Origin: Pantoea sp. RIT-PI-b
GTDB lineage: Bacteria; Pseudomonadota; Gammaproteobacteria; Enterobacterales; Enterobacteriaceae
Reading direction: 5' to 3'
DNA: 64,000 nt
Assembly (NCBI RefSeq): GCF_001187905.1
Contig: NZ_LGIS01000020.1
Span: 372,001 to 436,000 of the forward strand
Position numbers and translations under genes: made by a program. Position 1 is the stretch's first letter. The number at the start of each line of letters is the position of its first letter. Positions 2,393 to 57,872 of this stretch are shown here, piece by piece. The notes beneath the pieces are model-generated. The model did not search any database and was not told the origin of the DNA. It saw only the letters and a list, made by a program, of their open reading frames with translations.

Positions 2393-5300
2393 ATGTCATC
2401 ATCCGCACCTTCCCCTTTAGCCTCCCTTTGGACGCGGCTCGATAATCTGACGCTGCGCGATGGTCAACGCCTGCGCCGACGTTTGCTGGGCGCGGCAAAG
2501 GTGAAAAATTCGGTTAAGCAGCAGGAGATTGTGGCTGAACTGGAACCGGAATTTGTCGCGGCCGAACAGCGCCTTGCGCAGCGTAAGGCGGCGACTCCGC
2601 GCATTACCTTCCCAGAAAACCTGCCGGTAAGTCAGAAGCAGCAGGACATTGCCGATGCCATCCGTGAGCATCAGGTGGTGATTGTGGCGGGTGAAACCGG
2701 ATCGGGTAAAACCACCCAGTTGCCAAAAATCTGTCTGGCGCTGGGGCGCGGCGTCAAAGGCCTGATTGGCCACACTCAGCCGCGTCGTCTGGCGGCGCGC
2801 ACCGTAGCGAACCGCATCGCCGATGAGCTGGAAACCTCGCTCGGTGGCACCATCGGCTACAAGGTGCGCTTTAACGATCAGGTCAGCGAAACCACTCAGG
2901 TTAAGCTGATGACTGACGGTATTTTGCTGGCTGAGATCCAGCAGGATCGCCTGTTATTGCAGTACGACACCATCATTATCGATGAAGCGCACGAACGCAG
3001 TCTGAACATCGATTTCCTGCTCGGCTATCTGCGCGAACTGCTGCCACGTCGTCCCGATTTAAAGGTGATCATCACCTCGGCGACCATCGATCCGCAGCGT
3101 TTCTCGCGTCACTTCCATAATGCGCCGGTGATTGAAGTTTCTGGCCGGACTTATCCGGTGGAAGTCCGTTATCGCCCGATGGTGGAAGACGCCGACGATA
3201 CCGATCGCGATCAGCTACAGGCGATTTTCGATGCGGTGGATGAGCTTGGGCAGGAGAGCCGCGGCGATATTCTGATCTTTATGAGCGGCGAACGTGAAAT
3301 TCGCGATACCGCCGATGCGCTGATGAAGCGTGATATTGCACACACCGAGATCCTGCCGCTGTATGCGCGCCTGTCGAATGCCGAGCAAAACCGCGTGTTC
3401 CAGTCGCACAGCGGACGCCGCATCGTGCTGGCCACCAACGTAGCGGAAACCTCGCTGACGGTGCCTGGCATCAAGTACGTTATCGATCCCGGCACCGCGC
3501 GCATTAGCCGCTACAGCTTCCGCACTAAAGTGCAGCGCTTGCCGATTGAGCCGGTATCTCAAGCCTCCGCTAATCAGCGTAAAGGGCGCTGCGGCCGCGT
3601 TTCCGAAGGGATCTGTATTCGTCTCTATTCAGAAGACGATTTCCTTAGCCGCCCGGAATTTACCGATCCGGAAATTCTGCGAACCAATCTCGCATCGGTG
3701 ATTTTACAGATGACGGCGCTGGGGCTGGGCGACATTGCCGCTTTCCCGTTCGTCGAAGCGCCCGATAAACGCAATATTCAGGATGGCGTGCGCCTGCTGG
3801 AAGAGCTGGGCGCCATTACGCTGAGTGAAGATGAAACCTATAAGCTGACACCCTCAGGCCGCCAGCTGGCCCAGCTACCGGTCGATCCGCGTATGGCGCG
3901 TATGGTGCTGGAAGCACAAAAGTTTGGCTGCGTGCGGGAAGCGATGATCATCACCGCCGCGCTGTCGATTCAGGATCCGCGCGAGCGTCCGTCGGACAAA
4001 CAGCAGGCTTCTGATGAAAAACATCGGCGCTTTGCCGATAAAGAGTCCGATTTCCTTGCGTTCGTTAACCTGTGGAATTATCTGCAGGAGCAGCAAAAAA
4101 CGCTCTCCATCAATCACTTCCGCCGCCAATGTAAAACTGACTTCCTCAACTATTTGCGTGTACGCGAATGGCAGGATATCTATACCCAACTGCGCCAGGT
4201 AGTCCGAGAGCAAGGCATGCCGGTCAATAGCGAACCGGCGCCGTACCGCGAAGTACACAGCGCGCTGCTTACCGGCTTGCTGTCACACATTGGGCAGAAG
4301 GACAATGAGAAGCAGGAGTTCACCGGCGCTCGCAACGCGCGCTTCTCGATCTTCCCCGGTTCCGGCCTGTTTAAGAAGCCGCCAAAGTGGACCATGGTGG
4401 CCGAACTGGTTGAAACCAGCCGCTTGTGGGGGCGCGTTGCCGCGCGTATCGATCCGGAATGGATTGAGCCGCTGGCGCAGCATCTGATCAAGCGCAGCTA
4501 CAGTGAACCGCACTGGGAAAAAGCGCAGGGCGCGGTGATGGCGACGGAAAAAGTGACGCTTTACGGCCTGGCGATCGTGCAGGCGCGTAAGGTTAATTAC
4601 AGCCGCATCGACCCACAGCTGAGCCGTGAGCTGTTTATTCGTCATGCGCTGGTGGAAGGTGATTGGCAGACGCGCCACGCGTTTTTCCGTAATAACCTGA
4701 AGCTACGCAGCGAAATCGAAGATCTGGAACACAAATCTCGCCGCCGCGATATTCTGGTCGATGACGAAACGCTATTCGCGTTCTACGATCGCCGCATTGG
4801 CAGCGACGTGGTGTCGGCGCGCCATTTCGATAGCTGGTGGAAACAGGCCAGCAAAGAGAATCCCGATCTGCTGAGCTTTGATAAGCAAATGCTGATCAAA
4901 GATGGCGCCGATAAAGTCAGCCAGCTCGATTACCCTAACTTCTGGCATCAGGGCAACCTGAAACTCAAACTGAGCTATCAGTTTGAACCGGGTGCGCATG
5001 CCGATGGCGTGACGGTGCACATTCCGCTGCCGCTGCTCAACCAAATTGAAGAAACCGGTTTTGAGTGGCAGATTCCGGGCGTGCGCCGCGAACTGGTTAT
5101 CGCGCTAATCAAATCCTTGCCGAAGCCGGTACGCCGTAATCTGGTGCCTGCACCTAATTACGCCGAAGCGTTTCTTGGTCGCGTCACTGCCATGGAACAA
5201 CCGCTGCTGGATGCACTGGAGCGTGAGTTCCGCCGCATGACCGGCGTCACCATTGACCGGGAAGCCTGGCAGTGGGATCAGGTGCCCGATCATCTGAAAA

Positions 5301-6289
5301 TGACTTTCCGCGTAGTCGATGAGCACAACCGTAAACTGCAGGAAGGCAAAAACCTGCACCAGCTCAAGCTGTTGTTGAAGGGCAAGGTGCAGGAGACGCT
5401 GTCAAAAGTGGCGGATGATGGTCTGGAGCAGAGCGGGTTACACATCTGGAGCTTTGGCGATTTGCCACAAAGCTACGAGCAAAAACGCGGCAGCTATCAG
5501 GTTAAAGCCTGGCCTGCGCTGGTCGATGAAAAAGACAGCGTGGCGATTCGTCTGTTTGATAGCGAAGCCGAGCAGCAGAAAATGATGTGGCGCGGCCAGC
5601 GTCGTCTGCTGCTGCTGAACATCCCGTCGCCGACCAAGTATCTGCACGAGAAGCTGCCAAACAAAGCCAAGCTCGGGTTGTACTTCAATCCGTACGGCAA
5701 AGTGCTGGAGCTGATCGATGACTGCATCGCCTGCGGCGTGGATAAGCTGATGGCAGACGCGGGCGGCCCGGCGTGGCAGCAGGAGAACTTCGAACAGCTG
5801 CGCGACAAAGTGCGTGCCGATTTGAATGAAACCGTTGTCACTATCGCCAAACAGGTCGAACAGATCCTGACGTGCGTGTTCAATATCAACAAGTTCTTGA
5901 AAGGACGCGTGGATATGTCGCTGGCGCTGGCATTAGGCGATATTAAAGCGCAAATGAATGGCCTGGTGTATCGCGGGTTTGTTACCGGCAACGGCTGGTC
6001 GCATTTGGGCGATACGCTACGTTATCTGCAGGGTATTGAGCGCCGGCTGGAGAAACTGCCGGTGGATCCGCACAGCGACCGCGCGCGCATGCTGAAAGTG
6101 CAGGCGGTTGAGCAGGCATGGCAGACATGGCGTAATAAATTGCCACCGCAGCGGCAGGATGATGCCGAAGTGCTGGCGACTCGCTGGATGCTGGAGGAGC
6201 TACGGATTAGCTATTTTGCGCAGCAGTTGGGTACGCCTTATCCGATTTCGGATAAGCGCATTCTGCAGGCGATGGAGCAGCTGAGTTAA
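2393..6289 (+). CDS. hrpA: ATP-dependent RNA helicase HrpA (DEAH box)
   Basis: A 1298-residue DEAH-box helicase, almost exactly the E. coli HrpA length (1300). Visible motifs in order: Walker A GETGSGKTTQ at about residue 99, DEAHERS at about 197, SATID at about 225, and motif VI QRKGRCGR at about 393. A long C-terminal region with HA2, OB and HrpA-specific domains follows. HrpA acts on mRNA and on collided ribosomes. It stands alone, divergent from azoR, and ends in front of an unusual structured intergenic element. The start has only a weak ribosome-binding site. Confidence 0.98.
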   Translation: MSSSAPSPLASLWTRLDNLTLRDGQRLRRRLLGAAKVKNSVKQQEIVAELEPEFVAAEQRLAQRKAATPRITFPENLPVSQKQQDIADAIREHQVVIVAGETGSGKTTQLPKICLALGRGVKGLIGHTQPRRLAARTVANRIADELETSLGGTIGYKVRFNDQVSETTQVKLMTDGILLAEIQQDRLLLQYDTIIIDEAHERSLNIDFLLGYLRELLPRRPDLKVIITSATIDPQRFSRHFHNAPVIEVSGRTYPVEVRYRPMVEDADDTDRDQLQAIFDAVDELGQESRGDILIFMSGEREIRDTADALMKRDIAHTEILPLYARLSNAEQNRVFQSHSGRRIVLATNVAETSLTVPGIKYVIDPGTARISRYSFRTKVQRLPIEPVSQASANQRKGRCGRVSEGICIRLYSEDDFLSRPEFTDPEILRTNLASVILQMTALGLGDIAAFPFVEAPDKRNIQDGVRLLEELGAITLSEDETYKLTPSGRQLAQLPVDPRMARMVLEAQKFGCVREAMIITAALSIQDPRERPSDKQQASDEKHRRFADKESDFLAFVNLWNYLQEQQKTLSINHFRRQCKTDFLNYLRVREWQDIYTQLRQVVREQGMPVNSEPAPYREVHSALLTGLLSHIGQKDNEKQEFTGARNARFSIFPGSGLFKKPPKWTMVAELVETSRLWGRVAARIDPEWIEPLAQHLIKRSYSEPHWEKAQGAVMATEKVTLYGLAIVQARKVNYSRIDPQLSRELFIRHALVEGDWQTRHAFFRNNLKLRSEIEDLEHKSRRRDILVDDETLFAFYDRRIGSDVVSARHFDSWWKQASKENPDLLSFDKQMLIKDGADKVSQLDYPNFWHQGNLKLKLSYQFEPGAHADGVTVHIPLPLLNQIEETGFEWQIPGVRRELVIALIKSLPKPVRRNLVPAPNYAEAFLGRVTAMEQPLLDALEREFRRMTGVTIDREAWQWDQVPDHLKMTFRVVDEHNRKLQEGKNLHQLKLLLKGKVQETLSKVADDGLEQSGLHIWSFGDLPQSYEQKRGSYQVKAWPALVDEKDSVAIRLFDSEAEQQKMMWRGQRRLLLLNIPSPTKYLHEKLPNKAKLGLYFNPYGKVLELIDDCIACGVDKLMADAGGPAWQQENFEQLRDKVRADLNETVVTIAKQVEQILTCVFNINKFLKGRVDMSLALALGDIKAQMNGLVYRGFVTGNGWSHLGDTLRYLQGIERRLEKLPVDPHSDRARMLKVQAVEQAWQTWRNKLPPQRQDDAEVLATRWMLEELRISYFAQQLGTPYPISDKRILQAMEQLS

Positions 6290-6307
6290 GCGATTCGCAT
6301 TTTAGGA

Positions 6308-6327
6308 GGTCGCCATGAATGGCGACC
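6308..6327. repeat. GGTCGCCAT palindrome after hrpA
   Basis: A perfect 9-bp inverted repeat, GGTCGCCAT / ATGGCGACC, with a 2-base loop (GA), starting 18 bases after the hrpA stop. It lacks a U-tract, so it is not a standard terminator. The same arm sequence GGTCGCC/GGCGACC recurs in the terminator at 32248-32269. It is either a shared palindromic repeat or convergent terminator sequence. Confidence 0.6.
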
Positions 6328-6330
6328 CTA

Positions 6331-6540
6331 CGAAAGCGGGCATCAATATCACATTAACGAGAGAAAGGTGGGCAGTGGATTAGAGCCTCCGCCGCAGGGA
6401 CAAAAACGCCGGTAGCGTTTTTGAACAACGCATAGCGTTGGCCCACGAAGTGGGCGAGCCTCAGGGACGAGGCGAGTAACCGGCGGTCGAGGCTACAGGG
6501 ATGTATTCACGCCGTCTTTACGCAATGCCCGCCTTTTTCG
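6331..6540. repeat. Multi-hairpin intergenic element (about 210 bp)
   Basis: Nested inverted repeats fill the hrpA-ydgD gap. The outer arms are CGAAA+GCGGGCAT (6331-6343) and ATGCCCGC...TTTCG (6525-6540). An inner closing stem pairs AGCCTC (6384-6389) with GAGGCT (6489-6494) and CGCCG (6390-6394) with CGGCG (6481-6485). Inside are four consecutive hairpins: 6401-6423 (9 bp), 6426-6440 (6 bp), 6441-6455 (6 bp) and 6458-6473 (5 bp). No credible gene lies within it. Its 15-base core at 6456-6470 recurs at 57820-57834. It looks like a non-autonomous intergenic repeat or a structured RNA. Confidence 0.7.
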
Positions 6541-6569
6541 ACTGAGACGCACGTTACAAAGACCGCACA

Positions 6570-7376
6570 TTACTGCGCCAACTCTTCCAGCTTATCCTTA
6601 AACGACGGCACCGCAATGGCGCGGTTATCGGCGCGGTAACGATCTGCCGGTGCGGGTGCCGAACTCTGCACCGCAATTAACTGCCACTCATCGCCATTCT
6701 TCAACAGCAGCGGCGAACCGCTGTCGCCTGGCAAGGTATCGCACTGGTGCGATAACACCGCACGCTGTGCCCAGCCGGTAACTAAACAATCACTGTGCGA
6801 ATAGAGCGTATCCAGATGATCGGCCGGATATCCCGCTTGCGTCACTTTGCGCTCGGTGGTTTTCAGTGCAGCCGTCAAATCGCCACGGGAACCTTCAAAC
6901 AGCGGAATCGGCACAATGCCGGACGGCGGGTTATGCAAAATAACCAGCCCGTAATCGTAAGGTGCAGCACCCGGCGGCACGATCCAGCCTTCGCCGTCAG
7001 CCTGCAATCTGCGCGCTAAAGAGGGCTCTACGCGCGCATCAATATCATGAATCTCGTAACGCCAGCCTTTTGCGCTGGCCATAAAACGCAGTGCTACCGG
7101 CTTATCAAACTTGCCCGGCGGCGCCAGCAAACAGTGCCCGGCAGTTAACGCCAGGTGGGCAGAAATCAGGGTGGCAGTACAGAGGTTACCGCTTTCGGTC
7201 TCTAACTGACCGATGGCATCCCAGGGCGCAGCACTCACGTCGCTAATCGCCTGGCGGTGATCTTTGCCAAAGAACAAGGTTTTGATGTCTTCCGGGCTAG
7301 GCCCATCTTCATCATCGGCATGTGCTGCGAGGTTAAAACTGAAAAGACCAACAAGTAACAGGATAGCCAGGCGCAT
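6570..7376 (-). CDS. ydgD: Secreted trypsin-like serine protease YdgD
   Basis: A 268-residue exported S1-family (V8-like) protease. The signal peptide ends LAAHA at residue 20. The full catalytic triad is visible: His81 in LTAGHCLL, Asp141 in [11 protein letters not shown] and Ser219 in [11 protein letters not shown]. Two cysteine pairs (66/82 and 197/212) could form disulphides. Substrate is unknown. It lies downstream of asr and ydgU on the same strand, the arrangement seen in E. coli (asr-ydgU-ydgD), which supports the symbol. Confidence 0.93.
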
Positions 7377-7655: not shown

Positions 7656-8126
7656 TTATTTAGCCGCTTTTTTCACTTTGTGATGCTTTTTAGCAGCCTG
7701 AGCTTTCTGTGCAGCTGGCTTAGTTACTTTGTGGTGCTTTTTAGCAGCCTGCGCTTTCTGTGCAGCTGGCTTGGTTGCTTTGTGATGCTTTTTAGCAGCC
7801 TGGGCTTTCTGCGCAGCTGGCTTGGTTGCTTTTTTGTGGTGCTTTTTAGCAGCCTGGGCTTTCTGTGCAGCTGGTTTGGTTGCTTTTTTGTGATGCTTTT
7901 TAGCGGCCTGAGCTTTCTGTGCAGCTGGCGCTTTCTTCTCTACTTTCTTGTGTTTCTTAGCAGCCTGCGCTTTCTGAGCAGCAGGTTTCTTATGATGTAC
8001 TGCTTTGTGTTTCGCTGGAGCAGTAGTCGTCGCTGGCGTTGCAGGAGCAGCTGTAGTCTCAGCAGCGAAAGCAACAGAAGACATACCCATAGCAGCGGCG
8101 ATCACCAGTGCAAATAATTTTTTCAT
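7656..8126 (-). CDS. asr: Acid shock protein Asr
   Basis: A 156-residue exported, very Lys/Ala/His-rich protein. The signal peptide [21 protein letters not shown] is followed by a Thr/Pro/Ala linker and six near-identical copies of [12 protein letters not shown] separated by short basic linkers. Asr is a periplasmic protein strongly induced at low pH and thought to buffer or chaperone in acid. E. coli Asr is about 102 residues, so this copy has extra repeat units. A likely RstA box lies upstream at 8231-8244. The open frame on the opposite strand is only a shadow of the repeats. Confidence 0.95.
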
Positions 8127-57742: not shown

Positions 57743-57763
57743 CTAAACGCACCGAGTCAAAGA

Positions 57764-57872
57764 GCCGAGGGGCATATGGCAGAGGAGTAAAGCATCCCGC
57801 GCCAGGGAAGGCGCGGGCTGAGCCTCAGGGACGATTTATGGCGACTTTACTTTCTGCCATATGCCCCTCGGC
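57764..57872. repeat. Long hairpin between the NCS2 permease and osmV
   Basis: A perfect 20-bp inverted repeat GCCGAGGGGCATATGGCAGA (57764-57783) / its complement (57853-57872), extended inward by GAGTAAAG / CTTTACTT with a bulge. Inside is a second hairpin CCCGCGCC-AGGGAA-GGCGCGGG (57796-57817). The 15-base GAGCCTCAGGGACGA (57820-57834) is identical to 6456-6470. It lies between two convergent genes and may serve as terminator, but its complexity suggests a repeat element. Confidence 0.75.

Follow-up and report, generated by a model that had tools for sequence, protein, structure and literature searches.

The gap at 6290-6569 of the window (the whole 64-kb stretch of DNA that was analyzed) is flanked by hrpA (2393..6289, + strand) and by a convergent gene (6570..7376, - strand). 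The upstream gene product was identified as HrpA by NCBIfam, placing the element described here directly downstream of hrpA; the downstream gene 6570..7376 has no NCBIfam family, and 'ydgD' is simply the name that it was given in the original prediction. That prediction also held that the gap contains no credible gene, in agreement with our finding that it is overlapped by no open reading frame of at least 50 aa (ATG, GTG or TTG start). When Rfam was searched over 6000-6900, no family reached its cut-off and the three matches obtained up to E 10 were all far below it, so that no known family directly names the element. A GTAG-tagged REP-like palindrome located at 6309-6331 on the minus strand is a separate neighbor directly upstream of the element. 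Farther along the window, positions 7656-8126 (minus strand) encode the repetitive acid shock protein Asr (NCBIfam NF033636), which contains several repeat units.

The predicted fold of the plus strand between 6320 and 6550 has a minimum free energy of -92.3 kcal/mol, as compared to a mean of -73.5 for shuffled sequences (z -4.2, with 0 of 200 shuffles as good), and the minus strand of the same segment folds comparably (z -4.3, again with 0 of 200 shuffles as good). Four adjacent hairpins had been proposed at 6401-6423, 6426-6440, 6441-6455 and 6458-6473, and all of them are present as helices of the minimum free energy fold, as is the inner stem, which had been placed at 6384-6394 and 6481-6494 and is formed in the fold by 6384-6398 and 6480-6494. 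The outer stem required revision. Specifically, the segment 6331-6343 that had been taken as its 5' arm could by eye pair with the same 3' arm, yet it is positioned outside the conserved stem, which instead is a helix between 6361-6377 and 6521-6539. The conservation was assessed in an alignment of 30 genus copies, those picked by BLAST to the window, from which a covariance model (R1) was also constructed. Among these aligned copies, 18 of the 40 consensus pairs show changes on both sides, and such changes affect the outer-stem pairs (alignment columns 15-24/189-198) in up to 13 of the 30 copies. The strand of the element is defined as the one whose loops read GGA, which is the same direction as hrpA, and its features are the following:

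6348-6542, + strand: whole element, as matched by the family covariance model R1 (184.8 bits)
6361-6377, + strand: 5' arm of the outer stem of the YPAL-type shell, pairing with 6521-6539 (fold helices, both-side changes)
6384-6398, + strand: 5' arm of the shell's inner stem (fold); its counterpart in short copies forms one arm of the first GGA hairpin
6395-6401, + strand: GGA site 1 (CAGGGAC) at the shell/module junction, with GGA in 29 of 30 genus copies
6401-6479 (end approximate), + strand: module M, of the RrB/tRNA-linked-repeat type, occupying the first hairpin loop of the shell (from long versus short copies)
6401-6423, + strand: hairpin H1 of the module, with loop GGA in 28 of 30 genus copies and GGTA in the window copy
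6426-6440, + strand: hairpin H2, variable loop (10 variants in 30 copies)
6441-6455, + strand: hairpin H3, variable loop (11 variants in 30 copies)
6458-6473, + strand: hairpin H4, GCCTC-AGGGAC-GAGGC, a CsrA-type ANGGAN hexaloop with GGA in 30 of 30 genus copies
6480-6494, + strand: 3' arm of the shell's inner stem (fold helices)
6493-6505, + strand: shell GGA site 3, CTACAGGGATGTA, an ANGGAN hairpin with a 3-bp stem (TAC-AGGGAT-GTA), with GGA in 28 of 30 copies
6521-6539, + strand: 3' arm of the outer stem, terminating in CTTTTTC (fold helices, both-side changes)
57755-57871, + strand: second, short shell copy lacking the module (model match), whose ANGGAN hairpin at 57796-57817 has a stem of 8 bp

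In the minimum free energy fold, site 3 is drawn into another helix (6497-6503 with 6513-6519). The second copy at 57755-57871 has a long outer stem and a fold z of -7.0.

Comparison of long and short copies separates a module of ~80 nt from a shell in which long inverted arms accompany two GGA hairpins. On sequence grounds, the window feature is a composite, in which the first hairpin of a YPAL/RU-2-type palindromic shell has a four-hairpin module in its loop. The palindromic YPAL elements of Yersinia were reportedly the subject of work by De Gregorio in 2006. Our comparison sequence, that of the 168-bp YPAL/RU-2 repeat of Yersinia, was taken from Delihas 2007 (PMC2759123). A short copy from the window's own genome (L120) is 88% identical to YPAL over 75 nt and scores 92 bits, as compared to 26.5 for the best of 200 shuffles; seven of the eight short copies in this genome have YPAL alignments with E values of at most 2.4e-7, and the eighth (L127) has one of 3.5e-5. 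The window copy and a short copy have shell blocks in common that are 92% and 86% identical by BLAST, and Yersinia YPAL itself contains two ANGGAN hairpins, with stems of 7 and 3 bp. The element shares with YPAL/RU-2 a homologous shell, internal inverted repeats and dispersed intergenic copies, but the window copy differs in carrying the four-hairpin module in the loop of the first hairpin and in its outer arms. ERIC, REP/BIME and other enterobacterial intergenic repeats are likewise multicopy intergenic palindromes; the ERIC and REP sequences presumably differ from that of the element. The Yersinia sRNA family Ysr224 (RF02770) matches shells at L120, L129, L147 and 6466-6566 of the window, always below its cut-off and on the strand opposite to GGA, from which it follows that Ysr224 may be a transcribed YPAL copy.

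The four-hairpin module is, as judged from covariance model recognition, homologous to the RrB RNA that is encoded in the E. coli rrnB T1-T2 spacer. R1, which was built from Pantoea-genus copies only, matches this spacer in E. coli K-12 at 44.1 bits (E 2e-14, 5.5 kb searched), and rttR gave no match in the same search. The rrnB homology is visible to the covariance model only; blastn of E. coli genomes using a 96-nt query that started inside H1, and thus lacked the module start, returned no match at E 0.01. A structured RNA was one of the two options put forward in the original prediction, and a conserved structure is supported both by the covariation and by the model's recognition of the spacer encoding RrB. 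RrA, RrB and RrF of E. coli are tRNA-linked repeats that are located between rrn terminators and are transcribed and processed (PMC8144298, 2021). The same study reports that RrB binds CsrA in vitro via GGA motifs with a KD of about 100 nM, that RrB in which three GGAs were altered produced no shift across the tested range, that deletion or overexpression of rrA/B/F caused no clear phenotype, and that a program predicting CsrA-binding RNAs gives the 19 E. coli tRNA-operon repeats scores under 0.01 (PMC8144298). For Actinobacillus, Northern signals have been reported for two RtT RNAs (PMC4986893).

The likeness to the tRNA-linked repeats (RrA/RrB/RrF and RtT, RF00391) consists of a homologous hairpin module with aligned hairpins and GGA loops, whereas the window copy differs in being housed inside a YPAL-type shell between hrpA and 'ydgD'. 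The 64-kb window holds no tRNA genes and, with rRNA searched in 6000-6900, the window copy does not share the tRNA/rRNA-operon location of these repeats. Because its upstream gene is hrpA, it also lacks their 18-19 bp repeat of the 3' end of an upstream tRNA or rRNA, and we therefore describe it as carrying a module of the tRNA-linked type and do not class it as a tRNA-linked repeat. The module is also found without the YPAL-type shell. An Rfam tRNA match is present in the same ~3-kb locus at 6 of 16 and 7 of 19 loci scanned, and at several loci an inverted copy of a tRNA 3' end appears by eye to hold the module in its loop. One module copy in the window's own genome, located after a tRNA array, scores as RtT (RF00391) at 54.8 bits against a cut-off of 45. 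At this locus (L128 1026-1605, G000:C31), four tRNA matches are followed by the RtT-scoring copy, which has a GGA loop. Dispersed copies of related sequences have been described before: rtT-like BIME elements of enterobacteria, reported in 2010 and proposed to be attenuators, are likewise dispersed, intergenic and similar to rtT, and, set alongside the present family by description, they are prior art for its dispersal (PMC2965389). They lie upstream of genes such as gatY, rbfA and cvpA, and the part of that account considered here reads them as attenuators and makes no link to CsrA (PMC2965389). Outside the window, L130 (G231:C1:1102980-1105679) contains six model matches within 2.7 kb, one of them in sequence that by eye is T-arm-like and has no Rfam tRNA match, and at L294 (1389-1586) a group II intron domain match (RF02001) overlaps with that of the module, as if the module lay inside an intron loop.

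The identity of the feature as a composite dispersed repeat is firm. The proposed count of copies by BLAST located the element at 7 places in the window's own genome, and the covariance search with R1 gave 12 matches there, comprising 3 long copies, 8 short copies (111-118 bp) and 1 module-only copy. Within the genus, BLAST matched the element in 44 of 60 genomes, and R1 had matches in 31 of 38 genomes and none in 7 of 38, reaching at least 60 matches in relatives (67 candidates scored). At E 0.001, R1 matches 61 of 197 genomes and 27 of 79 genera across the order, and 58 of 185 genomes and 57 of 177 genera across the class; many of these order and class matches span the module alone. Among the matches listed, 35 plasmid records have a match, 34 of which are from Pantoea, and one Klebsiella plasmid record (L327) also scores 51.5 bits with R1; phage records gave no match to the element. 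Copies can be densely clustered, as a close relative has seven element matches within ~2 kb (G023:C10:972665-974729), and at L020 (1714-2617) and L242 (1061-1862) short copies occur in tandem at ~196-bp spacing, also alternating in opposite orientation, near long copies. GC-rich hairpins are common, and a single copy without covariation could be put down to chance or local structure; given the fold z of -4.2, the 12 genome matches, the both-side changes at 18 of 40 pairs and the class-wide model matches, we regard this explanation as having negligible probability, and the copies by themselves already refute it.

Although its stems vary, the element retains its GGA loops. In the 30 genus copies, GGA is retained at site 1 in 29, at H1 in 28, at H4 in 30 and at site 3 in 28, with the H2 and H3 loops serving as an internal control (10 and 11 variants, respectively). 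Counting both strands, the window has hexaloops on perfect stems of at least 4 bp at 690 sites, only 2 of which are ANGGAN, and these are H4 of the element and the hairpin at the tip of the second copy. If stems of at least 3 bp are considered, 5 of 2374 hexaloop sites in the window are ANGGAN, three of them in the two elements (6463, 6497 and 57804) and two elsewhere (19973 and 44249). Loops were then counted in 95 non-redundant copies out of 234 matches. An ANGGAN hairpin with a stem of at least 4 bp is present on the sense strand in 57 of 64 Pantoea copies and in 16 of 31 copies from other genera, and an H1 NGGA pentaloop is present in 39 of 42 loci drawn from the window's own genome, the order and the class (the exceptions being L137, L144 and L150), where the counts from outside the genus are not independent of the search, as the collecting model already includes the GGA columns. 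On the antisense strand of the same non-redundant copy set, no such stem>=4 ANGGAN hairpin occurs. The 18 distinct 4-bp stems all close with a C-G pair, and, since all of them end in C, they produce the published Csr/Rsm motif CANGGANG (PMC6849547). Similarly, site 3 (CTACAGGGATGTA) matches the UACARGGAUGU portion of the CsrA SELEX consensus RUACARGGAUGU, which was published along with ANGGAN hexaloops (PMC7652899). The element therefore displays GGA in hairpin loops of the ANGGAN type, as CsrA-binding RNAs do, and csrA is present in 34 of 34 genomes checked. In one open library, among the matches listed, only PMC8144298 tests a link between a repeat and CsrA, and it concerns rRNA-operon repeats; for the TAACTGA repeat, CsrA was considered and then rejected (PMC4679880).

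The decoy RNAs CsrB/CsrC and RsmX/Y/Z similarly have several GGA loops of the CANGGANG type. They differ from the element, which has few sites per copy and many dispersed copies, and which, as far as can be seen, is not a stand-alone sRNA gene. The hairpin and GGA layout would nevertheless suit an independent CsrB/RsmX-type sRNA gene with its own promoter, and a relative, L132, matches rsmX (RF02144) at E 2e-7 on 201 nt (44 bits against a cut-off of 56) and has its own terminator. For the window copy we consider such a gene very unlikely, as no promoter-like site was found in 6200-6620, rsmX gave no match up to E 10 over 6000-6900, and no other Rfam family reached its cut-off there.

To place the copies relative to genes, gene context was obtained by longest-ORF calling. 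Briefly, 194 Pantoea elements were merged wherever flanks were shared, which gave 73 clusters; a single member of each was placed, and 3 clusters with no gene called on one side were dropped, leaving 70. The elements lie between convergent genes in 51 of these 70 clusters and between divergent genes in 2, as compared to 6 and 11, respectively, of 31 element-free gaps in the window (Fisher p 7e-7 for convergent and 3e-5 for divergent). Element-free gaps beside elements (8 of 52 convergent) were excluded as a baseline, because a gap beside a convergent gap cannot be convergent. This placement is what a bidirectional transcription barrier, an attenuator-like element or a 3'-end stabilizer between convergent genes would show, with the loops being unimportant; the window copy's outer stem terminates in CTTTTTC, and rtT-like BIMEs have been proposed as enterobacterial attenuators (PMC2965389). 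We nonetheless find this account improbable. The terminator scan of 6200-6620 detected one weak site only, which falls outside the element on the minus strand (6578-6565), most copies among the matches listed have no T-run after the outer stem, and the loops are left unexplained. Moreover, a repeat of any kind that does harm close to promoters would be expected in such places, and convergent placement alone fits selection against promoter damage.

The orientation of the copies was compared in tandem-gene contexts, where 7 of 17 are sense and 10 antisense; this is no sense preference and hence no sign of a required strand. For the 55 pairs predicted on both strands, 55 G-U and 42 A-C wobbles were counted, with no clear strand bias, and each strand's own predicted structure favors its own wobbles (71 versus 45, and 56 versus 84). 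A sense-strand role was thus considered and is supported by neither gene orientation nor wobble pairs, and the lack of strand preference in both weakens the case for a role at the RNA level. These observations would be expected of a repeat that acts as DNA and is kept because its single-stranded hairpin is recognized by a transposase or a replication process, the CsrA match then being incidental. That both strands fold about equally well, that there are many copies, tandem arrays and facing pairs, and that the shell is homologous to YPAL, described as mobile (PMC2229807), point in the same direction. A DNA-level repeat would not, however, be expected to keep a Csr/Rsm loop closed by C-G on 18 different stems, or to share a module with the CsrA-binding RrB, and we consider it unlikely, although less so than a transcription barrier.

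Mobility itself has a precedent in YPAL, which has been described as mobile and MITE-like, and for which both empty and filled sites are reported along with 3- to 26-bp target duplications (PMC2229807). The element has inverted arms, as would be expected of a MITE. The original prediction offered a non-autonomous mobile repeat as its other option, of which the dispersed palindromic repeat and the homology to MITE-like YPAL are borne out, while a clean empty site was not seen at either of the sites compared with a same-species genome (G028), which likewise has 12 R1 matches. At site L121, G028 differs through an internal deletion between GGCGGC repeats, and at site L120 the copy is absent from G028 and the flank is rearranged there.

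The loops and the homology to RrB are, in our analysis, best explained if the transcribed element binds CsrA, a reading that we hold to be somewhat probable. It draws on the copies, the composition of the element, the conservation of its loops and its homology to a proven CsrA-binding RNA, all of which are shown by the data above; for the window copy we infer transcription, CsrA binding and titration or 3'-end effects. Also in its favor are the RtT score of one own-genome module copy, the sub-threshold rsmX match of L132, the ANGGAN hairpins of YPAL itself, the shorter forms at the hrpA-ydgD site of two relatives and the presence of csrA in all genomes checked. In the proposed mechanism, the gap would be transcribed, most simply by read-through from hrpA, as the loops read GGA in the hrpA direction. 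The RNA would fold into a closed multi-branch structure and would display CsrA-type GGA sites at H4, at shell site 3 and at junction site 1, the H1 site being lost in this copy. It could then capture CsrA dimers, acting as a local site at the 3' end, and the copies taken together could be a weak CsrA decoy. Counting against CsrA binding are the absence of strand bias, the GGTA sequence of H1, the occurrence of site 3 within a helix of the minimum free energy fold, the lack of a promoter-like site, the strand matched by Ysr224, the low predictor scores and unclear phenotypes published for the E. coli repeats, and the failure of R1 to match rttR.

The match of the hairpin loops to the binding site of CsrA, a global RNA regulator, suggests that CsrA sites may be spread around genomes by a repeat. 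A broader proposal, which we advance tentatively and consider rather doubtful, is that Gammaproteobacteria possess class-wide dispersed CsrA-binding modules, found downstream of rRNA and tRNA genes, within YPAL-type repeats and elsewhere between genes, that together constitute a spreading CsrA sponge. If this were true, spreading would put CsrA sites into dozens of 3' ends, creating a distributed buffer for a global regulator. Earlier descriptions treat YPAL apart from the tRNA-linked repeats, for which no function has been agreed, and if one CsrA-type loop logic unites the two and is present in dozens of copies per genome, intergenic repeats that are usually regarded as 'inert' could be tuning a global post-transcriptional regulator. 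The claim of CsrA-type loops also bears on the rrnB T1-T2 region, which serves as a terminator in many expression plasmids.

The site downstream of hrpA was also examined in relatives, with 19 of 80 hrpA-downstream gaps being read by eye. Shorter forms, with other stems around the same loops, are seen by eye at the hrpA-ydgD site in L037 and L038. In L038, the short form has the hairpins GCCGC-ATGGAT-GCGGC and CCC-AGGGAT-GGG and scores 51.7 bits with R1. L037, from Pantoea endophytica, gave no R1 match and by eye has a single hairpin, GGCCC-AGGGAT-GGGCC, inside outer arms. No element is visible by eye in the hrpA-downstream gaps of L040-L055. At the same site, L037 and L038 also have, by eye, a different GTAG-tagged palindrome. 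The long form is seen by eye downstream of hrpA in L039 (CEFQ01000005.1), where the C-terminal part of HrpA is 96% identical to the HrpA of the window.
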